Assembly: GCF_018320785.1 (NCBI RefSeq)
Contig: NC_054867.1
Coordinates: 30,135,855-30,199,854 of the forward strand
DNA: 64,000 nucleotides
Origin: Cheilinus undulatus
Lineage: Eukaryota > Chordata > Actinopteri > Labriformes > Labridae
Reading direction: 5' to 3'
Notes under the pieces: model-generated
The model's input: the letters and a program-made list of their open reading frames with translations, nothing else
What the model was told of the DNA's origin: nothing
Databases searched by the model: none
Shown here: positions 13,313-62,640 of the stretch, one piece after another
Numbering within the stretch: the first letter of the stretch is position 1
Layout: each line of letters begins with the position of its first letter
Position numbers and translations under genes: made by a program

Positions 13313-14932
13313 CAGTTAAAACCAGAAGTTTACATACACTATATAAAAAGGCACATAAACTTTTTTTTTTCTCACCGTCTAACATTAAATCAGATTAAAC
13401 TTTTCCTGTTTTTGGTCAATTAGGATTACCAAAATTATTTCTATTTGCTTAATGCCAGAATAATGAGAGAGATCATTTTTTAGACAATTTTTTATTATTT
13501 TTTTAAACGTCAGAAGTTTACATACACTAAGATTACTATGCCTTTAAACAATTTGGGAAAGCCCAGATGATGATGTCATGTCTTTGGAAGCCTCTGATAG
13601 GTTTATTGACAACATTTGAGTTAATTAGAGGCACACCTGTGGATGTATTTTAAGGCACACCTGAAACACACTGCTTCTTTGTGTAACATCATGGGAAAAT
13701 CAAAAGAAATCAGCCAAGATATCAGGAAGAGAATTGTAGACTTGCACAAGTCTGGTTCATCCTTGGGTGCAATTTCCAGATGCCTAAAGGTGCCACGTTC
13801 ATCTGTTCAAACAATTATACGCAAGTATAAACACCATGGGAATGTCCAGCCATCATACCGCTCAGGAAGGAGACGGGTTCTGTGTCCCAGAGATGAACGT
13901 GCTTTGGTCCGAAAAGTGCATCTCAACCCAAGAACAAAAGCCAAAGACCTTGTGAAGATGCTGGCTGAAGCTGGTCAGAGTGTGTCATTATCAACAGTCA
14001 AACGAGTCCTGTACCGACATGGGCTGAAAGGCCACTCTCCCAGGAAGAAGCCATTATTCCAAAAGAAACATAAAAAAGCCAGATTACAGATTACAGTTTG
14101 CACACAGGGACAAAGACCTTAATTTCTGGAGACATGTTCTGTGGTCTGATGAAACTAAAATTGAACTTTTTGGCCATAATGACCATCGTTACATTTGGAG
14201 AAAAAAGTGGGAAGCTTGCAAGCCTGAGAACACCATCTCAACTGTCAAACATGGGGGTGGCAGCATCATGTTGTGGGGTTGTTTTGCTGCAGGAGGGACT
14301 GGTGCACTTCACAAAATAGATGGCATAATGAGAAAAGAACATTATGTGGAAATACTGAAGCTACATCTCAAGACATCAGCCAGGAAGTTAAGCTTGGGCG
14401 CAAATGGGTTTTCCAAATGGACAATGACCCTAAGCATACTGCCAAACTGTTTACAAAGTGGCTTAAGGATAACAAAGTCAATGTTTTGGAGTGGCCATCA
14501 CAAAGCCCTGATCTCAATCCCATTGAAAATCTATGGGCAGAGCTGAAAAGGCATGTGTGAGCAAGGCGGCTTACAAACTTGGCTCAGTTACACCAGTTCT
14601 GCCAGGAGGAATGGGCCAAAATTCCTGCAAACTATTGTGAGAAGCTTGTGGAAGCACATCCAAAACATGTGACCAAAGTCATACAGTGTAAAGGCAATGC
14701 TACCAAATACTAATGAAATGCATGTAAACTTCTGACTCTCAAGAAAATAATTTTGAAAAAATGTCTAAAAAATGATCTCTCTCATTATTCTGGCATTTAG
14801 CAAATAGAAATAATTTTGGTAATCCTAATTGACCAAAAACAGGAAAAGTTTAATCTGATTTAATGTTAGACAGTGAGAAAAAAAAGTTTATGTGCCTTTT
14901 TATATAGTGTATGTAAACTTCTGGAAGAAAAC
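13313..14932 (+). mobile_element. Sleeping Beauty-like Tc1 transposon with IR/DR ends
   Basis: It begins CAGTTAAAACCAGAAGTTTA next to a TA at 13311. Long inverted arms of about 220 bp each contain two direct repeats with core AGAAGTTTACATACACT (13322-13339 and 13511-13528). The right arm has inverse copies near 14716-14738 and 14907-14923. The arms remain nearly identical, suggesting recent arrival. The last 10 bp of the right end are altered (AAGAAAAC instead of the inverse of the left end). At about 1.62 kb, the size matches Sleeping Beauty-class elements. Confidence 0.9.
13691..14713 (+). pseudogene. Tc1/mariner transposase, inactivated
   Basis: Starts MGKSKEISQDIRKR with the paired-like DNA-binding domain and a GRRR AT-hook-like motif, then the DDE catalytic domain: [18 protein letters not shown] and PNPIENLW-type ([13 protein letters not shown]) blocks, giving a DD34E arrangement. 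Three lesions are visible: a 7-bp tandem duplication GATTACA-GATTACA at 14082-14095, a one-base loss near 14388-14392, and a TGA at 14558-14560 where relatives have an Arg codon (CGA to TGA transition). The original reading frame ends at 14711-14713. Confidence 0.88.
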
Positions 14933-15300
14933 TAGGAAAGATGCATCATGTATTGATTGCACAACAAGCAGATTAAGTCTTTGACTCCTGGCACAGAATT
15001 ATAGTTAACCACAGTGTCTAGAAATGATCTTGAATCTTGGTTATAATTTGGTTTTATTTAATTAGCTTCACTAATACTTAGCTGTACAACTAATATTTCC
15101 ATAAGTTATGGTAATTGAGTAACCTTGCAAAGCAGATGGATATGCCCCTTTCCTTGTTTTTCACTGGCGAGATGAGTGAAACAAATCCATCTGGCGAGTC
15201 AGGTTAGTAATTGAGTTTACTTGGATTTCTTTGGGGGAGGGTGAAAGATACCAAACCAAGAAATAATGAAAAGCATCACGTTAGGATAGGCCTACCATTA
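14933..15300. other. Intergenic DNA right of the Tc1 element
   Basis: AT-rich sequence upstream of srsf3, with the 87-bp MITE listed separately as its only recognised element. A continuation of the interrupted LINE after the Tc1 element was not clearly recognised. Confidence 0.4.
15120..15206. mobile_element. 87-bp MITE with TAACC/GGTTA ends and 9-bp target duplication
   Basis: The element starts TAACCTTGCAAAGCAGATGG and ends with the inverse-type ATCCATCTGGCGAGTCAGGT plus TA. It is flanked on both sides by GTAATTGAG (15111-15119 and 15207-15215), a perfect 9-bp duplication. Its first 50 bp match the inverse of the right end of the 565-bp copy at 57609-58173, and its last 37 bp match the inverse of that copy's left end. 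It is therefore an internal-deletion derivative in opposite orientation. Confidence 0.85.
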
Positions 15301-28399: not shown

Positions 28400-30193
28400 T
28401 TCGTTCCCATCCTTACCAGGAATAGGTGTTTATTTTATGTTTCTCGGCCTTTTTTTTAAATAGTATTTTTTGAGTGATTAACCTCTCTTGACCTAGGCTT
28501 ACCTTGACTGTTATATAACAGTGGGGGAATGGTCTGAGAAGCACATGATTGAAAAATAAGACTCAGAATTAACCATTATGCTACTCTGTCTCTTTATATA
28601 TTTATTTTTAAGCTAACAGAAGTTTAATCTATGTACAGATAATTTAGTAATTAACAAATATATAGTCTCAAATGCTTTAGGAGGTCCCCCACTGGTCTTG
28701 GCTAAATACTGGTCATCAGTCCTGATAATATTAAACATTGTCCCTGCTTTTTGTTTGTTTGTTTGTTTTTTACAGAATTTTCGCTAAATTTACTACCTTC
28801 TAATTTACTTACTACCATTTAATGGTAACTTTACATGGTAACTCTAAAATATGCTGTCACAATGAAATTAAGAATTTGGTTTTATTTTTACTTATTACTA
28901 AAATGTAGATGGGTTTTGGTGAATCAGGAAGTTGAGTTTATGTGTATCCCTTAAACTGAAAAGCGAAGGAACTTCCTGGAAAAATGCATTCCCCCACAGC
29001 CTTTATTTCTCTCTCTGCTGAGCTGTTCAAGTGAGGCCACAGCCCAGTCATATGAGGCAAGAAGACATGTTTGGCTTGCCTTACAGCCATATTTACATCA
29101 CTTTATAGCTGTATTATCAGATAATTTGAACAGGATAATGTGGCAAACATTATCACAGTAAAGATCTGTCTCTATGGACCACTTTCTGGACTTTCCGTAC
29201 ACTACTTTTCAAACTGTATAAGATCAGCAGAATTGAAAATGTGTTGTTCTTCCAACTACTTTTCTTGTAATGGCAACACCCTCCCCCTTCAGCCTTGCTG
29301 AGTTATTAGGGTGGGCTGTGAAAGTTTTCTGCTGATTGTTCCCTCAAATGGGAATCCTGCCAAGCCCTTCCTAGTGAATTTGACTTCTTATCCTCCTGGG
29401 ACACAGATGTTTCCTTCCTGGAGCTCGTTCAGAAAAATGCCATAATATTGCAGTGTAGCCAGTTTGCATCGTTCTGTGCAAAAGCATAAACGCCAGCTGA
29501 TTACATCCATGAATCTCACACTCTCTTTTAGCTTTATCAATGAAATATTCGTGATTATCTGCTCATTGTATCTGTGGTGTGGAGCTGGCTGTCTGTAGGA
29601 CAGTCTGTTATCACCACCTAGTGGTGACCGCAGTCCTGACAATCTCCTCTGAGGACTTGCCCCACTTGTCTGTGTGAGATTATGTCCAGGCATGTACCAG
29701 TGATTCAGGCAGGAGGGATCAGTGAGTCAGAGTGTTTGTCTGCTGTCTTATAAAGAGCTCCACAGTATCACCAGTATGAGATGCTCTGAAGTTTTCGTTG
29801 AAGAAACACAGTCCTGGTTAGAGTCATGGTAAGGCGGATTTCTCCTTTAAAATTAAGGCTGGCAGAATTTCTTTGACAAGGGGTTGGGAATGATTTGGAA
29901 AGCCTGACACTGGAATTAAATGGGATGAATTATTTTTTAAAAATGCATTGTAGGAAATCTTTTTGTTTTGCGTGTGTGAAATGATATCAAGTGTCTCAGC
30001 GCAATAAAAGTATGGCAGAAACTGATGTTTTTGCATGTTGTTAGATCAACTTAAAATGCTGCTGCTGCTGTACTGGGAGGTAGAGAGCTCTTATACTCAT
30101 AGAGGAATAACTGTCACTGTGACCACTTTAGCTTTTCTTCAATGATGTCACCTTGCTCAACCATTATTATTTTTTTTTCCCATTTTCCTGCAG
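28400..30193 (+). other. Remainder of cdkn1a intron 1
   Basis: AT-rich intron up to the acceptor TTTTCCTGCAG at 30193. No repeats or exons were recognised except an overlapping pair of p53-half-site-like words at 29063-29081 (AGACATGTTT and TGGCTTGCCT). Confidence 0.45.
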
Positions 30194-30202
30194 TGTCGAA
30201 CC

Positions 30203-30780
30203 ATGGCTTTCAACAAACGTATCTTGACCTCTATGGGAAATGGCCCCGCTCGCCGAGTCCTGTTTGGCCCAGTAGACCGTGAGCAGCTGCAGATGGAGTA
30301 CCAGGCTGCCCTGCGGAAAGACCTTGATGAGGCCTCGCAGCGCTGGGGTTTTGACTTCATGTCAGATAAGCCTCTGGAGAGCAGTGATTTCCAATGGGAG
30401 GGAATCCCAGGAACCAAGGTGCCGCTGCTTTATAGATCCTGCATGCTTGGTCTGGGACAGACTGGAGGTCAGAGGGCTACGGCCAAGGGAGGAAAGGTGG
30501 GGTCTTCACAAAGGGAGAAGGAGAACATTCCCCGCTCTCCTGAGAGATGTGCTGCACTTGACCTGGGAAAACTGGAGAAAACACCAGAGAAAAGAGAGAA
30601 CAGGGGGCTGAAGAGGAAGCAGACAAACATTACAGGTACTGGTTTAAATATCGTACGTGTCACAAAAGAAAGGAGTTTAAATATGTCTTTTATGGGTCTA
30701 AGTTGTTGATCTTTATCCCAACAGATTTCTATCAGGCTAAAAGAAGAGTGGTTGGGATGCCACGCAAATCCGGTCAGTGA
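30203..30780 (+). CDS. cdkn1a: CDKN1A (p21/Cip1), cyclin-dependent kinase inhibitor 1A
   Basis: Coding exons 30203-30635 and 30725-30780 give 162 residues (human 164). The start codon has an ACCATGG context nine bases after the acceptor. The CDI domain is clear: cyclin-binding ARRVLFGPVD at 16-25, RWGFDF at 47-52 and a CDK-contact region PLLYRS near 73-78. The C-terminus carries a PCNA-binding PIP box QTNITDFY (140-147), split by the intron after T144, next to basic KRK and AKRRVV that serve as nuclear signal and second cyclin motif. SP/TP sites (RSPER, KTPEK) lie between. Family role: nuclear inhibitor of cyclin-CDK complexes and of PCNA-dependent replication, usually induced by p53. Order after srsf3 matches mammals. 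CDKN1B/C are excluded by the PIP box. Confidence 0.95.
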
Positions 30781-40700: not shown

Positions 40701-43700
40701 GTAATAAATTCATAAATAAAGCATCGGTCAATATTAAAGGGAAGCTATAAAATCAGATTACCATGGGTTTTTTCAAATGACTTACTTTCATATCATGATT
40801 TATTAGTAAGACAGTTCTCAGAAGAGACTTTTACATTACAGACTCAAAGAAACAAATTGCTTTATTTTTCTCAGAAAATGCAAAGACAATAATGATTCAC
40901 TACTCTCTAAAGGTAGTATCAGATGGAAACTACTGATTTCTCATGAAGAAAAATGGACCATGAGTAACAATCACTTTCAATTAGACAGACATAAACTTAC
41001 CTGTCAGAATGATTCAATTATACCTAGAGTAGATTTAAATGAATGTGATGTTTCCCCTGCTTGAGACAAGTTCTGCTAGTTTTACTTCATCTGTACTAGT
41101 CTCTGTCGAACCCTGATAACCTCTCCCTGCCCTTTCATCCCCTCAGCTGGACAAGAGCGAGGTGGCAACTCTAGGCTTACCCTCCACCACCAGCCATGGA
41201 GGCTCTGACAGTAACATCAGTGCAGACGGCGCGGGGGCAGCAGCAGCAGGGGTCACAGCAGGCGGTGCAGAGTGTTCAGGGGCTGGCGAGCCGCAGAGGA
41301 CGCGTGCCGCTCTGGAGCATCTGCAGCAGAAGATCCTGAAGGTCACCGAGCAGATTCGCATCGAGCAGGAGGCTCGTGACGACAACGTTGCAGAGTATTT
41401 GAAGTTGGCCCACAACGCAGACAAACAGCAGGCGTCTCGGATCAAGCAGGTGTTCGAGAAGAAAAACCAGAAGTCAGCACAGACCATCGCACACTTGCAC
41501 AAAAAACTAGAGCACTATCACAAGAAGCTAAAGGAGATAGAACAGGTAAGTGAGCAGGTGCATTCGTGAATGTGGTGTTTTTATGTGCTGCTGTGGCTGT
41601 CTCTAACAAGTGTTGGATCACCCAGGATGTTTGTGTCCAGAAATAGACTGATGATTTTCATCTCTTAACACTTGTTTCAACCAATGCATCATCTTGTGTC
41701 TCACCTAACTCTCTACAGCCTGCTTTCCTCATCTATCATCCTGAAACCTAATCACCTTTCTCCTGCCTGTGAGATCCTCCACTTCTCTGCTTCCTCACTT
41801 CTCTGCTTCCCTCTCTGCAGAACGGACCAGCCCGCCAGCCTAAAGATGTCCTCCGGGACATGCAGCAGGGATTAAAGGACGTTGGTGCCAACGTACGTGC
41901 TGGGATAAGTGGTTTTGGTGGTGGGGTAGTTGAAGGGGTCAAAGGTGGAGTATCTGCCCTGACTCACACAGCTGTGGTCTCCAAGCCGAGAGAATTTGCC
42001 AGTCTCATCAGGAATAAGTTCGGCAGTGCAGATAACATCGCTCACCTAAAGGACACACTTGAGGACGGAGTTGGGGTACACTCTGAGGACACCCCTACAC
42101 CTCGCGCCCTGAGTGGAAGTGCCACTCTGGTGTCCAGCCCAAAGTACGGCAGTGACGACGAGTGTTCCAGCGCCACGTCCGGCTCAGGAGCAGGCAGTAA
42201 TTCTGGTGGGGCAGGAGGAGGAGTAGGAGGAGGAGGGTTATTAGGACCAACCATGGGGAGCCCCAGACTGGATGGGCATCATCACCACCATCATCACATG
42301 CACAGCTCTTGGGACTCTCTACTGGAGAGCCTGCAGGAGATCAAAGCCAGCCAGGCGCACATGGAAGATGCCATCGAGGACATGAAGGGCCAGCTGCAGA
42401 GCGACTACTCCTACATGACACAGTGCCTGCAAGAGGAGAGATACAGGTGCACAGCCAAAAACAACAGTTTTCATAAAGAAGAGGTCAAGACAACACTCAG
42501 AATAAATCCACCAATAAGCAAACACTAGACAACAGCAAAAAGTGAAAGAAAGAAACAAGAAAAAATCTCAAACAGATATAAACAAAAACAGAAATATAGA
42601 CTGGCAGGCAGCTTAAAACATGGCAACAGAAAATAGAGCTAGACCACCAACGATCAAAATAACGGTAGGAAGTGACTTCTATTAGCAATAACAACTAGAG
42701 ACTGTTAAAAGCTGCATTAGTAGGAGTCAAACACAGCATTCGAAGAGATTCTTCAGGAGGAGAGAGAGCATACTAACTCTAGGAACCTCAAACCAGAATC
42801 ACACCCAGACTAACAATGAATAAACCTTTTCACTTAAGCATTTACTTCCTACCAGCCTTGTCTATCAGGAGATAGAAGAACTTTCCAAAAATCACACAAC
42901 AGAATCTATCACTATCATTTATCTCCGCAAAACCAAATCTAATTTTGCAATACGTGGATTTCCAGTGCACAACATGCAAATGAATCACATTTTAAGATCG
43001 TAAATGTCATCTTTTCATTATTTTGGCCATAGAGAATGACTTTTTCTTACCTTTCAAACTGGCATATAAATGTCTTGTCTCTTGTTGATAGTTGGCTGGC
43101 CCTGATTGATCGCCATGGCCAGGAAAACAATAGAAGAAAAAATTGGAGCATCATCATTGACTAACAGGAAGTTCTCTTTTAGTTTTGGTGTCAAAATGGA
43201 GGAGTAATAGCAACACTGCTTTGTTTTTCCTAGTTATAAACATAATTACTAGTCATATTATCATGAATTTGGCTATGGAGATTAGTAAAATCAGGCTCTG
43301 AGAAAACACCAGGCTTTGCACCTGGAATAAAAATCTCCTGGAAGGGATATAAACGCCAGTAGCTGCTTGTAGATCGGCAAGAAGGAACGCTTCAGGTCAC
43401 AATTGAAGTCACAGAGATCCTTATGGTCTTATGGTTCCTGAGATACCGTAAACAACGCATGCAATACTGCTTGGGATCATTGTTAGCTCTGGAGGGTTTG
43501 GAGGGTTAACCTTGGGGAATTTAAAGTTATTAACATGCATTAGGGTACATAAATTCATTTAAATAAAGTCTGAGCCTTTAGCAGTATAACCATGGGTTGG
43601 TCCAACAGAGGTATTGGTTACTCTTATCAAAGAGGGAAGTTTAGTGCTGCAGTAGAAAGAAAAGAAAGCCTTTACCTCCTTAAGTGGACTTACTAAGTAT

Positions 43701-45610
43701 TCTCCAGGAGAGGGCAAGATCACCCATAAGGGGGAATAAAAGGGAGAGCTTTCAAAATCACGGTCCACTTAAAGCTAGCCTGTGATAATAATATTTTTCT
43801 TTCAACCTGTATAATAACCGCTCTAATCATAAAGCAACAAAATATATAAAATAGATTTATGCTGTAGTGCAAATATAGACTTTTTAAAAAGGAAACCCCT
43901 TTTAAAAAAAACAAACAAAATAACCTTATTACTGGTAATGTTAACAATGTGGATGGGCACACTAAACTAAAACATTTGGAAAGTAATGTTAGACTACAAA
44001 GGTAGGCCATGATGTGCACAAATGTTTGGACCGAAAGAGTGAAAAGCAGCTACAATGAGCACAAAGCAACAAAAACTGGTTAAATAAATAAAAACAGGAA
44101 AAAGGGCATACATGGGCATAAAGAGGCAAAGAAGTGGCAATAAAGGGTGAACACTGCAAAAATGGGTTAGAAGTGGCAAAAAAGGGAGAAAAAATGTTGA
44201 AAAGGGGTTAAAAAGTAGCACGAAAAAATAATTCTAACAACTGAACCCAGTAATAGTTTGACACACTTTTCAGGTCCAAAATGAGGTAACTGTTAGCCAG
44301 GATGCTAGCACTAATGCTACATATCCAACACACACAGGTATTAATAACATCAGTAAATCAGGGGAGGGTCCATTCTCTAGGGTTCTCAGGGGCTCAGCCA
44401 ATCTGTGGGCAGCTCTGCCTCCCATACTGCTCTTGGAGTAGTGAGGGAGGCAACTAAGGAGTTGGAGTTTCAATTTTAAGATCTTTAATTTTCTTTTGTG
44501 TGTTTTGTAATTTCTAATCAGGTACGAACGACTTGAAGAACAGCTGAACGACTTAACAGAGCTGCATCAGAATGAAATGACCAACCTAAAACAGGAACTG
44601 GCCAGTATGGAGGAAAAAGTTGCATACCAGTCTTACGAGCGGGCAAGGGACATTCAGGTAAAACATTGGCCCATTTTTGTAGACTTTTAACATCACAGAA
44701 AAAAAAATTCTGTATCTATACAACTCAGATTTTTTGTGTACCATTTAAAATGATTAATTTTAAAGAAAGAGTTTTTAAAAATATATTGCATTGTTATAAA
44801 GCAATTTGAAAAGTGTGGATTAGTCAGAACTGATGAACAACTACCAAATGATACACCTATGTTAATATGACTCCAACAAAGACCCCAAGTCTCACCCCCT
44901 CCAGTAAACACAATGGGATCAGGAGAATTGACCAGTCAGTGGTAATTCTCTCTATATCATTTTTTATTGAACAGTAACTCACTCATATTTAGAAGTGTTA
45001 GGTTATCAAAGTAGTGTTTGGGGTGTGGTGCTAATTCCTTATTTTAATTCCCCATCTGGGACAAATAAAGTGTTTTGAATTGAATTGAACTGAATTAAAT
45101 ATTTCTCCAGTATTATACTTCCAAGTTTTACTATAAACTTTGACTTTGTGTACAACGTCCATGTATTACTTTAGCAAACTTTAAAGGAGGTCAAACTTTA
45201 TTTGTTTTTGCCGTTATTGGCTGCTTTAAAATTATTTCACAAAAAAGATACTGTTGCAACCAAAAAGCAGAGAAGCAGCTTATCCCAACGTGGTTTCTCT
45301 GTTCATACAGGAGGCTGTGGAGTCCTGCCTGACCCGCATCACTAAGCTAGAGCTGCAGCAGCAGCAGCAGCAGGTGGTCCAGTTGGAGGGAGTCGAGAAC
45401 GCTAATGCTCGAGCTCTTCTGGGAAAACTCATCAACGTCATCCTGGCACTTATGGCGGTGCTTCTGGTCTTTGTCTCCACCATGGCCAACTTCATCACCC
45501 CACTGATGAAGACGCGAGCCCGGGTCGGTGCCACTGTCCTCCTGACTTTGCTGCTGTTCATCTTGTGGAAGCAGTGGGACTTTTTGGAGCCGTGGCTGCT
45601 GCCCAGCTGA
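37774..45610 (+). CDS. tmcc2: TMCC2, transmembrane and coiled-coil domain family 2 (short isoform)
   Basis: Exons: putative ATG-only end of exon 1 (37774-37776), 41147-41545, 41821-42446, 44522-44657 and 45311-45610. Joined phases are clean, giving 487 residues. Coiled coil: [20 protein letters not shown] to [15 protein letters not shown]. Then comes the family block [40 protein letters not shown], a fish-specific Gly-rich and (His)7 linker, a second coiled coil ([13 protein letters not shown] to SYERARDIQ), a (Gln)6 run and two membrane segments at about 424-447 and 460-474, ending LLPS. The C-terminus and [10 protein letters not shown] favour TMCC2 over TMCC1 and TMCC3. Family: ER-anchored protein, related members binding ribosomes or scission machinery. 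The long mammalian N-terminal exon was not found in this window. The start codon is inferred; exons from 41147 on are certain. Confidence 0.9.
39171..40565 (-). mobile_element. Tc1-like transposon, minus strand, in tmcc2 intron 1
   Basis: The left end CAGTGCCTATAAAAAGTATT follows TA at 39169. The minus-strand transposase is in pieces: N-terminal [17 protein letters not shown] (40389 leftwards) with the helix-turn-helix and [16 protein letters not shown]-like block, and C-terminal [13 protein letters not shown] (39610-39550). The catalytic middle is frameshifted, and the right terminal repeat is missing after about 40565. Same family as 25082-26323 and the 214-bp MITE. Confidence 0.85.
42447..44521 (+). 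other. tmcc2 intron with low-complexity repeat
   Basis: Intron between the coding exons ending 42446 and starting 44522. It contains a degenerate array of AAAGTGGCAAAAAAGGG / GGGGTTAAAAA words at about 44040-44225, a form of low-complexity repeat. No hidden exon was seen. Confidence 0.5.
45000..45100 (+). repeat. Retroelement 3' tail fragment in last tmcc2 intron
   Basis: CCCCATCTGGGACAAATAAA followed by GTGTTTTGAATTGAATTGAA, the typical end of a fish non-LTR element with a GAATT-repeat tail. Only the tail is present. Confidence 0.45.
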
Positions 45611-56700: not shown

Positions 56701-59700
56701 AAGTAAATGTAACATAAGAGTTAGTATTTCTGAAGTGTTCAAATTTGTAATGATCTCCATTATTCCAGGAACATTACTTGCATTAAAAGCATTTAATGCA
56801 TATTTTGAAAATATTTGCTTACTTTTGATGCAATCTTACTTTCAAAAAGACATCATGTCCTCTATATTTACCACAAGCGACTTAGTCAAAACAGAGTGAA
56901 CCCTAGTGTTGTAGCTATTCACATCATTTCTTTTGTTTGATAATTTTACATTTATTCATTATTTGTTTGGGGAGAATTTAAGGATTAATTTTTATACAGC
57001 TAATGTTATCGTATAGAGTAATTAATTATTGAGTGGGGCTTTTGTTTTGATATATTTGGTAGTTTTGCACAAGGTGACGTCTATATTATGGGCAGGTAGG
57101 ATAGGATGGGCGTGCACCGGGGAAGGTGAATGGTTTTTTACCAGGAAGGCATGAGTCAGGAAGGCGGAGAACGCCAATTGTTTGTGAGAAGCTTTTGTGA
57201 ATAAACGCCTCAAAAGTTATAATTTTTGCATGGACATTGACATTTTTGATCCTGCGTAAGATCTACTATCCCTGAGCCACAGTGGTCGCTTTGATTTTTT
57301 TTGAGTTTTGAAATTGTTTGTTAATTGAAAAGAACAAATCGCCGCTATACCTAGCAATGCAGATACGCATACCACTGTCAGATAACGATGCTGATACCAT
57401 GCAGAAATACTTGTATTCATAAAACGTTGCTGATATTGAATTCAATATAATTTACAGCATGATGTAAGTCACTCATTATTTGAGCTGGTAGGTTAAGCTG
57501 GAGCAGTGTCTACAGGTACAAACTTTCAAAATATCTTTAAAAACAAGTTAAAGTACAATAAAGTGTTTTTTATGCTTGGTATGAATGAGTGCCCTAAATG
57601 TAAATACCTAACCTGACACGCCAGATGGATTTGTTTCATACATCCATCTGGGAAAGCTTCAATAGGAAACGTTTGAGAAAGGGCTGAGGCTTTGAAAAAA
57701 AAAAAACTAACTTGAGTGTGGTTGGGTGAACGTTCTGTCTGTCACATCTCTATGGGCCAATCAGAGCAACAAAACACGTGACTTAGCCGCTATCAAGCTG
57801 CCCGTGTGCAGTTACTGAGGATTAACACGAAACATGGTGACTATAGACATGTAAGTACTTGACTTTTGTCGTTTTTGAAAAGAAAACAACCCACTGCTGT
57901 TCTTTGTTCTTCTTTTAACGAAGAAATGTCGTCAAGTTGATAAAACTGGTGCTTTAGCAGCATCCATGTAATCTCTTCCTCCATAACTGCACCGGCTCTT
58001 GCTGCTGCTTGTTTACGTCACAACTTTGCTGCACCTGAAAGTACTGCCCCTTGTCGCTGATTGGTACCTGTCACTTTCTAACCAGGCCCAAATGGTTCAG
58101 ATGGGAGCTTTGCAAGATGGATACGCCAGTGAGAAACAAGGAAATGGATGTATCCATCTGCTTTGCAAGGTTAGTAAATACCTGAACTTGGTCTGAAAAC
58201 ACTGGTCTTGTTGCATCTCCAGGGAACAAACACCTTTAAATGTGTTTAAATTAGGGCTGTCAAAAGGTTAGAATTTTATTCGCAATCAATCACACCCTTT
58301 TCCCATTATTTTAGAATTGCACTATTTTGCATTTTAAACCATTTTGGTCTCTTTCTGGATTTTTCTACAGTCTTTAACTAAGGGTAACTGACTTTCTAAT
58401 TGGATACAGGCCTGCTTTTAGAGGCTGATTGTAGATTATAACATGAACTTGACCACAAAAAGGATATTGTTATGGACTGAAAATTAAATAAGAGAACATT
58501 AAAAAGGTCCAGATGACTTCTGACTGGTCCACTGAGCCGTCTGAGTTTTTAAAGTGAAATGAGACATGGAGGAGCAATGGTGGACTTATATCACATCACT
58601 ATGGCTGTAGGGAGATGCTGACGTGTCTTAACCAAAGTGTGTTGTAAGTGATAATCACGCATGTGGTTAATTGCAATTTTTTTAAAAAAGAGCACTAATT
58701 GTTGACCTTAGTTAATTGTGATAAATTTGATAAATCTTAACAGCCCTGGTTTAAACGTGTCCATGGTGTTAATTCTCAGATTGGGGAATAATGTGATAGA
58801 CCTATTGGGAGAAGGTACACTTAAGTCTCATGTGACTGGTTGTAAAGGTGCCAGCTAGAGCCAAAAATGCCAGGGCTAAAATTTCTTTTCAATCTAGCAC
58901 TGGGAGTGTGACTTATTTAGCAAAACAAAATATCAAAGTATGTTTGGGACACAGGCTAAAATATATTGACTGACTATTGTTTGTATTTCTGGAGTATGAC
59001 AGTCTCTTATATCTAACCATATTGTGTAAATAAAAAGGATCCAAAAGTTTTCATTGCATTGGAAATCTGCCCCTCGATTGTTTTGAGAATCAGCTCTAAT
59101 TAGAAAAAAACCTTATAATATATGATTTATTCAAACAGTAACTAAACACTGCCATCATCATAGCGAAATCGTCATAGTAAGAATCTAAGGTATACCCGAG
59201 GAACTCCTAAAAAACATAATACCCAGTGTAAATATGGAAGGTGATACAACCTAAAAGAGAATTTTTCAAGAGATAATATTCGGTCACAACATTACACCTA
59301 ATGTATAAAGCAGAAGTATTTGTGTAGAGGTGTTGAAAGTCTTACCTGGCTGAGTAGCTGCCCATGAAAAATGGTGTTAAGAACCTTTAGCACTTTCTTG
59401 GATAGCTTCCTCTTTGTGATCGGGATAACTATCCTGCGTTTGGACCCCTCTGTGTCCAGCTCTTGCTGCACCTTGTCCAGGAGCTCACACAAGAACTCCT
59501 GAGCGTCCTGCTGGTCATAGCCCCTAAAGGCTGGGATGAGGTTCCACACGGAGTGCAGCATGGCAAAAGGGGACACTAAAGACCACCGGCCTGACCACAT
59601 TACCCTGAAAAGTGTGTGTAATTCATGGCACAGAGACATCTGCTGGCGGGTGGAGCAGCGGGACTCCTTGGGCTGGACCAACTCTGCAGCCTGTGGGGGA

Positions 59701-60758
59701 GGTGGGACACTTTCTTTTTTGCCCAAGGGCAAGTTCCAACTGCCCGCCCTCCCTATACGTCCAAGAGGGCATCCTGCCAGTGATGTGTTACCACTGCTGA
59801 CTACACCTCCTGTCACACCTTTCATCCCTGGGGAGTGATTGGTCTTGGCCAGCAGCTCCTCAGTCTCACACAGGTCCAAAGTGAGAAAACACTCCCTGAA
59901 TTTCTGCAGGTGGCTCAGCACTTGCAATATTGAGTTCATGTAGCATGTGTTTCCCAAGTTGCGCAGACCAGTGACACCTGGAGCCAGTCTCCGGCGGGTT
60001 ACCGTGTGTGTGGAGTAGTATCTCCTCAGTTTAGCAGCTCTGCCATTCTGAGGACTCTTACGGGTCAGGGTTAAGAGGGAAGGCTTCTTGGGAGGAGGGT
60101 GTGGAGGTAGGCGTTCTGGAGGGTCGCGAAATTTGCGAGGAATGAGTGTGATGGTTGAACGTGGCGCCTGAGTGAGAAGCCTAGCACTCTTTCTGGGTGG
60201 GACATTACCAAGCTCTTCCATGAGTCTCCTTTTTACCTCTTTCTTTTGTCTTCTAGCTTCCTCAAGTTTCTCTTTACGTTTGTCCTGCAGTTCCTGGTGT
60301 TTGCTGAACCACACCTGAAACATCTTCCCGAGAAGTGCTTTCCTCCTGTGACGCAGAGCCAGCTGCATGGCGGGCTGTGGCCCACTGTCTCCAACCCAGG
60401 GGGTGCAGTCCCCCCCAGTGGAGGAGCGGAGTGAGCGTCTACCTGGGCTGCGAACAGTAGAGAGCGCTCCTCTGAGGAGTTTGAGGTCACCCTCAGCATT
60501 GTCATTGAGAACATAGTCTCCACAGGCAAAACAGAAGACATCCAGCTCACGCACCTCCATAGCCAGAGGGTGTTGAGACTCCTGAAAGTGTTTGAGTGAG
60601 TGCTCCTCCATGAAACGTCCACAGGCCACGTGGGAACACTTGAGGCAGGCCCACACTGAATCGGTCGTTCTGCAGTCGACACAGTGCCATTTTTGTGGAT
60701 TGAGGATAGAATGGTCCTGGCCCAGACGAAGGCGTCCCACGTGCTTACAACGATCCAT
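53799..60758 (-). CDS. usp49: USP49, ubiquitin carboxyl-terminal hydrolase 49
   Basis: Five coding exons on the minus strand: 60758-59346, 55248-55041, 54470-54362, 54193-53988 and 53902-53799 (stop TAG), 679 residues (human 688). The N-terminal zinc-finger UBP domain has C4, H6, C26, C29, C38, C41, C46, H53, H57, H63, C76 and C79. A basic, coiled linker with PPRKSARLL follows. The USP domain holds catalytic C272 (GNTCYMNS), zinc pairs C474/C477 and C536/C539, H635 (GSGHYTAY) and D653 (HCNDS). [12 protein letters not shown] and NPQKW are USP49-like; USP44 begins MDTCKHVGQLQL. Family role: nuclear deubiquitinase acting on histone H2B and linked to co-transcriptional splicing. Intron 3 uses a GC donor. 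The start was chosen as the first in-frame Met, opening the zinc-finger domain. Confidence 0.95.
55249..59345 (-). other. usp49 intron 1 (coding part), 4.1 kb
   Basis: Between the donor CAG|GTAAG at 59345 and the acceptor TTTTAG at 55249. It contains the 565-bp TAACC-family element and a short CAAAA repeat near 55490. No further exon was seen. Confidence 0.7.
57609..58173. mobile_element. 565-bp element of TAACC/GGTTA family, 9-bp target duplication
   Basis: Starts TAACCTGACACGCCAGATGG and ends ATCTGCTTTGCAAGGTTA. It is flanked by a perfect 9-bp duplication GTAAATACC (57600-57608 and 58174-58182). Each end forms a subterminal hairpin (CCAGATGGAT...ATCCATCTGG at 57621-57651 on the left; GATGGATAC...GTATCCATC on the right). 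The interior has a CCAAT box (GGGCCAATCAGAGC) and a short ATG frame ending at a GTAAGT donor near 57851, resembling the promoter and first exon of a gene. Confidence 0.88.
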
Positions 60759-60800
60759 CTCTCCAGATACACATGTGGCCTCAGTGATAGGACACGCGTC
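60759..60800 (-). other. usp49 5' UTR part of coding exon 1
   Basis: On the minus strand a good acceptor TTGGTTACAG precedes 60800, leaving 42 untranslated bases before the ATG. At least one upstream non-coding exon is therefore likely, probably in the CpG-richer region near 62.6-63.4 kb. Confidence 0.6.
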
Positions 60801-62640
60801 CTGTAACCAAGCAGGAACTCATTCTAGAGAAGGTAAAAAAAAAAGAAATTTCACGTGAAATCACAAAATGACTGTTAACCAACTTCTGCTCTTGTTTTAG
60901 TGCACATTTTGGCCAACATTCCACTGATTTTAAATTCTTATTCTCTGATTCTTATTGATAGCATGTGTTTTAATTTTCCAATGATCAACAGTATCAGAAA
61001 GTAAAGAAGCTTAAAAAAGACAGATCTTCATTTACATTCTCACTCCAAAGCTGCTGCAAGCATGAGGGAGCACGACAGTGATCCAAACAAATTCACAGAT
61101 CAGAATATTTCTATTTTTTAAGTCATGTTTTGCATTGAAGTAGTATTCATGTCTTTGGCGTACAGAGAGCAGTAGAAGTGACGCATATATAGTAAGCAGG
61201 AGATGAATATGCTTGCAATTTTAATGATAAAAAAAATAGGAATTTCCCCTATATCAGAAGCTTAGGAGGACTTCTATTTTTGATGCTGTGGTATCAAAAC
61301 AGGTATCAATAATGTCTTATTTCACTAGCATCATATTAAACTCCAAAATTTCAATCATTACAACCCTATAAGAAGCATTCTGGATTTAATTCTCATAGAA
61401 ACTACTGTGCTGGTACTGTCACAAAGTTAATTAAGCTCTACTTACTGCAAAAGTAGTTTGCTTTATCAGGTTTTGGATAGTACATCACACCATCTGAAGT
61501 GAACTCAAATCCAAAGTCCAGCAAGGTCATCCATGTCTGCTGCCACCATCAGCATCAACAGGAACTCTCTGAAGAACAGGGATGAAGACAAGTGAATCAA
61601 TGCCTGGAAAACCAGATGTGACAGCAAACTTTTATTACACATGGGGCATCAAAGAATGACTGTGTTTTTGCTTTTTACCTCAATTTAGCAAATCATTACA
61701 TATACTATGCGTAAAAGCCACTTGATCAGCAGAAGGCTCAGAGCACATGCTATTATACAATACTCCTTTTCATTTGCTTTGGTTTTTTTTTTTTATTTGG
61801 ATTTTTTCTCCATTTCTTAGAATTTCCCTCCATTTCTTAGAAAGCTTAGACTCAGAGGTAGTTGGTTGTGTAGTGTGGGGTTTACTAGAGGATATGGATT
61901 ATATCCACTTATGTTTCAGTCTCCGCTTCTTAATAAAGAGTATATCTCATAAAGAATAGACAAATTAACACTACACCCACTTCCGCTTGCACCACTACAC
62001 CACTGGGGATAACCAACTGATATTGTAGTTTTGTACTGCATGAGGAACTCTGTAATATTGAGCTGTACTAAATAACTTGACATTAGATAGAATAATCCGT
62101 CTATGTCACTGGAAATTTTAGGTTAAAATACATGACTAATGGTAGCCTGCTGCAATGAAATGGAGACATGGTAAACACAGTTTTAAAGAAATAGTTAACG
62201 CTCTTGAATGGGCTAAAGTACAGGCAGAAATGTTGACATTAAGGAGAATGGCTGTCCATCCATTAAAATAGATGTAATTATTCCATGTAATTGTCTACAT
62301 GCACGGCATCAGCGCTGAGCATGAACCTTTGTTCTTGCTTTTTATTTTCCTCATTGTGTAAATCATCTACTTCTTTTCAAAATAAAAATTTCCAAAGGAA
62401 AAAACATCGATGCAACTGGTTCCGAGTGAGTTGCAAAGCCAGATCGTGCAATTATTTTGAGCCATTGACGCTGTGTCTTTATGACCAAGTGGCGATGGTT
62501 CAAACAAATGTTACAGTATCTTAGCTTTATCCGTCCGTGTTCTAAAGCCTGTTGTCTAAATCCGACTGGCTGGTTCTTATCGCCATGCTAAGCTACCCCA
62601 TCATCACCATGTCCAGCCAGAACAAAGAACAGCAAGAGAG
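60801..62640 (-). other. Putative usp49 5' intron
   Basis: AT-rich sequence with no recognised exon or repeat, between the acceptor at 60801 and the promoter-like block. Open frames here (61747-61959, 62291-62524) lack family matches. Confidence 0.4.

Follow-up and report, generated by a model that had tools for sequence, protein, structure and literature searches.

A stretch of 64,000 nucleotides of the Cheilinus undulatus genome (hereafter the window) contains two short elements with the same ends, and the question they raise is to which kind of DNA transposon they belong and which proteins could have moved them. A preliminary description of the window reported an element of 565 bp and a copy of 87 bp in inverted orientation, each between perfect 9-bp duplications, and both are found as described. 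The features discussed below are the following, the window positions of the left part, the right part and the helicase remnant having been counted by hand.

15111..15119, unstranded: target site duplication of the short copy, GTAATTGAG, read from the sequence
15120..15206, minus strand: short copy of 87 bp, internally deleted, consensus positions 1-36 plus 509-559, at 94% and 96% identity
15207..15215, unstranded: target site duplication of the short copy, GTAATTGAG, read from the sequence
57600..57608, unstranded: left target site duplication, GTAAATACC, read from the sequence
57609..58173, plus strand: probable non-autonomous AcademH-like element of 565 bp, with the ends TAACCT...AGGTTA
57609..57886, plus strand: left-end-derived part, consensus positions 1-270, from two blocks (93% and 84%) aligned to the left end of a long copy, L052
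57621..57651, plus strand: left subterminal hairpin CCAGATGGAT...ATCCATCTGG, from an opposite-strand self match and the consensus fold
57881..57984, minus strand: probable remnant of the first codons of a RecQ-like helicase gene, from the consensus frame (40 protein letters, not shown)
57881..58173, plus strand: right-end-derived part, consensus positions 265-559, a consensus block that aligns to the right end of L052 at 85% identity
58174..58182, unstranded: right target site duplication, GTAAATACC, read from the sequence

The ends of the 565-bp copy are imperfect inverted repeats of 22 bp, 77% complementary, of the form TAACCT-N7-CAGATGGAT. Each 22-bp end is found at two places in the window, one per copy, with at most 3 mismatches, and 100 shuffles gave 0 matches. 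The window copy diverges by 5.8% from a 559-bp consensus of 30 copies, in which a computed fold places a hairpin near each end. It carries the start codon of a forward gene at 57834-57836, within its left-end-derived part, and lacks two consensus bases in the helicase remnant. The 87-bp copy is a further deletion, in which consensus positions 1-36 are joined to 509-559.

Elsewhere in the window, 13322-14924 is taken up by a Tc1-type element whose long inverted ends are 90-98% complementary; about 195 bp separate it from the 87-bp copy. Its transposase is split over two frames, one at 13625-14122, with a Sleeping Beauty-type HTH, and one at 14028-14546, which has no Pfam match and was assigned by eye. 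Likely host gene exons encode a cyclin-dependent kinase inhibitor domain (30146-30709, plus strand), a Tmemb_cc2 (TMCC-type) protein (41773-42528 and 45230-45610, plus strand) and a ubiquitin hydrolase with zf-UBP (59298-60818, minus strand).

Searching the genome with the ends had been proposed as a check on the family, and in the 1.17-Gb assembly that contains the window it returns thousands of matches. With as many as 2 mismatches allowed, 7,069 sites match the 30-bp left end and 16,519 match the 23-bp right end, both being tallies of ends and not of complete copies, while the reversed-sequence controls for both searches gave 0 matches genome-wide. A DNA search with the whole element produced 8,412 first-look candidates, 40 of which were scored. 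Among the 41 matches listed, one spans 45 bp and 40 are full or near full length, namely the window copy itself and others that are 89-92% identical.

The duplications were compared in 30 copies of full length, namely the window copy itself and those that match it best. The 9-bp duplication is perfect in 18 of them and has at most one mismatch in 25; the flanking 9-mers of the remaining five differ at 2, 2, 2, 5 and 7 positions, and in the last two (L009 and L026), as judged by eye, a 9-bp repeat reappears once the loss or displacement of a few bases at one end is allowed for. In the same register, perfect repeats number 18 at 9 bp, one at 8 bp and none at 7, 10 or 11 bp, and a control in which the right flank was slid along gave 0 perfect and 1 one-mismatch repeat in 6,000 comparisons; the duplication is therefore 9 bp long. 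These counts bear out the earlier claim of a real mobile family. They rule out the alternative offered with it, an 8-bp duplication with a preferred G, since the first base of the duplication is also mixed (G 13, C 8 and A 4 in 25 copies).

A second sample, not selected for overall similarity, was drawn from the first 22 exact right ends listed on contig 1; 20 of these were used, and two were left out because they already belonged to a set of copies with both ends exact. In these 20 copies, the 9-bp duplication is perfect in five, has one mismatch in three and more in 12, several of which are old or truncated. Among the seven copies picked for exact left and right end patterns, three have a perfect duplication, two have one mismatch and two have none. 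Over their aligned parts, the 20 copies share about 77-96% identity with the consensus, whereas the 30 best copies diverge from it by 3-6%, which argues that insertion was spread over time and that most copies are not recent. Two copies lying 0.5 Mb apart on contig 1 (L063 and L074) have near-identical flanking 9-mers, GATCCGTCA/GATCTGTCA and GATCCGTCA/GATCTGTCT, which suggests that they sit inside another repeat or a duplicated segment.

The interior of the consensus gives access to the parent of these copies. Its six-frame translation contains a forward start, MATIDM*VLDFCRF*KEN, corresponding to MATVDKSVHDFCRFCKEN in L052, and, in reverse orientation, a frame of 40 protein letters (not shown) that forms a convergent gene start; from its pattern, we take the latter to be the start of a RecQ-like helicase. 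CCAAT-like boxes are seen by eye upstream of both starts. A candidate first exon with a splice donor, ATGGCGACTATAGACATGTAAGT, was discarded when comparison with L052 identified it as the mutated first codons of the forward gene. The consensus had been read as containing a helicase start prior to the genome search that used this reading, in which the query was the reverse frame joined to a generic helicase motif I. This query recovered copies that run on into helicase motif I, and at L033, within L052, the reading extends through LIVVSPLVALTEDQI.

The 10-kb locus L052 contains a long copy of 8,995 bp (L052:825-9819) with the same ends as the 559-bp consensus. Its flanks, TCTGGTTTT and GCTGGTTTT, agree at 8 of the 9 duplication bases; its left end is identical to the consensus at positions 1-21, and at its right end the last 10 bp are identical and the 11th is mismatched. 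The Repbase rule for non-autonomous elements, as worded in the excerpt of PMC4455052, asks for termini that are alike at positions 1-11, one mismatch being allowed, and for the same duplication length, and the present copies stand in this relation to L052 within the same genome. Aligned to L052, the consensus consists of two element ends fused at a 6-bp overlap, with blocks at positions 1-168 (93%), 204-270 (84%) and 265-559 (85%, at the far right end) that are collinear with both ends of the long copy. Since these three blocks match both ends across the overlap, the consensus is an internal deletion of an L052-like element. Internal gene starts that persist in MITE-like copies thus allow such copies to be assigned to a parent.

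A second deletion class, represented by eight loci (L032, L034, L036 and L038-L042), retains more of the helicase start. In all eight, the break falls directly after the same motif, KSLI or KSVI, and this uniformity points to a separate founding deletion; the copies with both ends located (L038, L040 and L041) measure 448-513 bp.

Ten stretches of L052 were scanned against Pfam. On the forward strand they contain DUF6589 (8.5e-15, with a weaker piece at 0.01, below the cut-off), and on the reverse strand Helicase_C (1.2e-12) and DEAD (7.8e-5, just under the cut-off), the best PDB matches of the C-terminal piece of the helicase being WRN, BLM and RecQ. The copy is decayed, with frame breaks and one stop within the DUF6589 stretch. 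A near-palindrome of about 263 bp (about 8425-8687 of L052, 71% self-complementary) lies in the helicase gene region and is possibly a nested insertion. The longer copies with the same ends that the preliminary description had proposed to look for are thus represented by a decayed element with DUF6589 and RecQ-like helicase genes.

Mutator-like elements make 9-bp duplications, and a non-autonomous Mutator-like (MULE/MuDR) family, with a MULE transposase in its parent, would share this property with the copies described here. The ends here, however, are short, at 22 bp and 77% complementarity, and the ten stretches of L052 hold DUF6589 and a helicase but no MULE domain, which makes this origin very improbable.

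Other loci hold parts of the same two genes. A whole-genome profile search for DUF6589 gave two candidates and one match, which is located in L052 and has one internal stop. The C-terminal piece of the helicase gave 15 candidates and six matches; these include L052 as well as decayed loci at L058 and at the overlapping L059/L060, and two of the six are distant and may represent host genes of the RecQ type. With forward-gene DNA as the query, five candidates and seven pieces were obtained, in L052 and on contigs 7, 10 and 22. On contig 10, L092 shows a left end with 4 mismatches in 22, followed by forward-gene blocks ordered as in L052, and its right end was not found within the 14 kb examined; on contig 7, L093 contains forward-gene blocks and no recognisable end, a further 0.6 kb upstream included. 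The forward gene is therefore joined to the left end at two loci, L052 and L092, and the sole long copy found with both ends is the broken one in L052. Relatives of DUF6589 were sought in viral and prokaryote contigs, where none was confirmed, and a PDB search with the DUF6589 stretch gave no match. In the partial collection of full-text literature searched, no mention of DUF6589 and nothing on Academ-H in fish was found; the Pfam accession string of DUF6589 turned up in an optics paper, where, judging from the title, it has another meaning. The 20-base left end, searched literally in the papers, did not occur in any of them.

Altogether, we consider it probable, at roughly 0.8, that the family is made up of non-autonomous elements of the AcademH kind, which a parent of about 9 kb, now decayed, mobilised in trans. 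The original description of AcademH is said to be that of Kojima 2020 (Mob DNA 11:15). In the excerpt of PMC10045372, AcademH is the helicase-encoding group with 9- or 10-bp duplications, and a title cited there reports it from animals and fungi. Here, the duplication is perfect at 9 bp in 18 of 30 copies and at 10 bp in 0 of 30, L052 agrees at 8 of 9 bases, and L052 encodes a helicase (Helicase_C 1.2e-12; DEAD 7.8e-5, under the cut-off); the assignment rests on duplication length and helicase, AcademH being compared by its description. What speaks against it is that L052, the sole long copy found with both ends, is decayed, that L092 shows a left end alone and L093 neither end, and that 12 of the 20 copies taken without regard to similarity differ at two or more positions between their flanking 9-mers. 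Because the helicase and the 9/10-bp duplication match AcademH as excerpted, the simplest reading of DUF6589 is that it forms part of the Academ transposase.

DUF6589 could otherwise be the transposase of a separate, undescribed superfamily that resembles AcademH just in its helicase and duplication length. DUF6589 is a Pfam family of unknown function without a mention in the partial literature collection, which would suit such a superfamily, but a helicase with a 9/10-bp duplication is the very combination stated for AcademH in the excerpt of PMC10045372, and we regard a separate superfamily as improbable. A broader conjecture, rather unlikely though slightly less so, is that DUF6589 represents a transposase domain so far unrecognised, and that a helicase-assisted lineage defined by it, whether AcademH-related or separate, underwent here one of the largest expansions of its kind, with thousands of MITE-like copies, before the autonomous parent was nearly lost. 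If the link to DUF6589 is true, a Pfam family so far without a known function would acquire a transposase role open to testing, and elements with such ends would provide a substrate for asking what the helicase contributes to such transposition.

Under the AcademH reading, the autonomous parent would have been an element of about 9 kb in which two genes, each beginning close to one of the ends, converge, the forward one encoding the DUF6589 protein, a putative transposase, and the reverse one a RecQ-like helicase. Internal deletion, at the 6-bp overlap in the case of the 559-bp consensus, would have left both ends, the two gene starts and the subterminal hairpins in place. The transposase, probably together with the helicase, would then have worked in trans on copies with the imperfect TAACCT-N7-CAGATGGAT ends, inserting them by way of a staggered cut of 9 bp. 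Cut-and-paste in trans with such a stagger is what the duplications and the internal-deletion anatomy suggest; the DUF6589 protein is most likely the transposase, as it is the product of the only other gene recognised in the parent, and a part for the helicase is presumed from its presence there. The system has probably lost its activity today.

Compared with known systems, the family shares with AcademH, as excerpted from PMC10045372, the 9-bp duplication and the helicase in its parent copy, and differs in that the window copies have no intact gene; the other gene of the parent is recognised here as DUF6589. AcademX belongs to the same superfamily, but in the same excerpt it encodes a nuclease and makes 3- or 4-bp duplications, and it is ruled out by the 9-bp duplication here and by the ten scanned stretches of L052, which hold no nuclease domain. 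A Kolobok-type element with a RecQ helicase (KolobokH) would also bring such a gene with it, and in Kolobok-1_CCri the helicase even lies on the complementary strand (PMC9587614, in excerpt). According to that source, however, Kolobok elements have a 4-bp TTAA duplication and 5'-RR/YY-3' ends, as against varied 9-bp duplications and TA...TA ends here, and KolobokH is found in fungi only, so that we give this origin next to no credence. The preliminary description had set the family apart from hAT, Tc1, PIF/Harbinger and piggyBac, which agrees with the duplication length and with the genes of the long copy. It had also called the family possibly new and had not recognised it; a real family with 9-bp duplications it is, yet a parent with a RecQ-like helicase fits AcademH, and in all likelihood the family is a non-autonomous representative of an already known kind rather than a categorically new one. 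Where it stands out is in number: Table 2 of PMC4746887, also in excerpt, gives 987 Academ copies for zebrafish, 791 for medaka and 334 for stickleback, counts of fewer than 1,000 per genome that depend on the repeat library of that study, whereas the end matches here are far higher (7,069 and 16,519), a sign that fish genomes may hold more Academ-derived DNA than such counts show, its MITE-like copies being unclassified.
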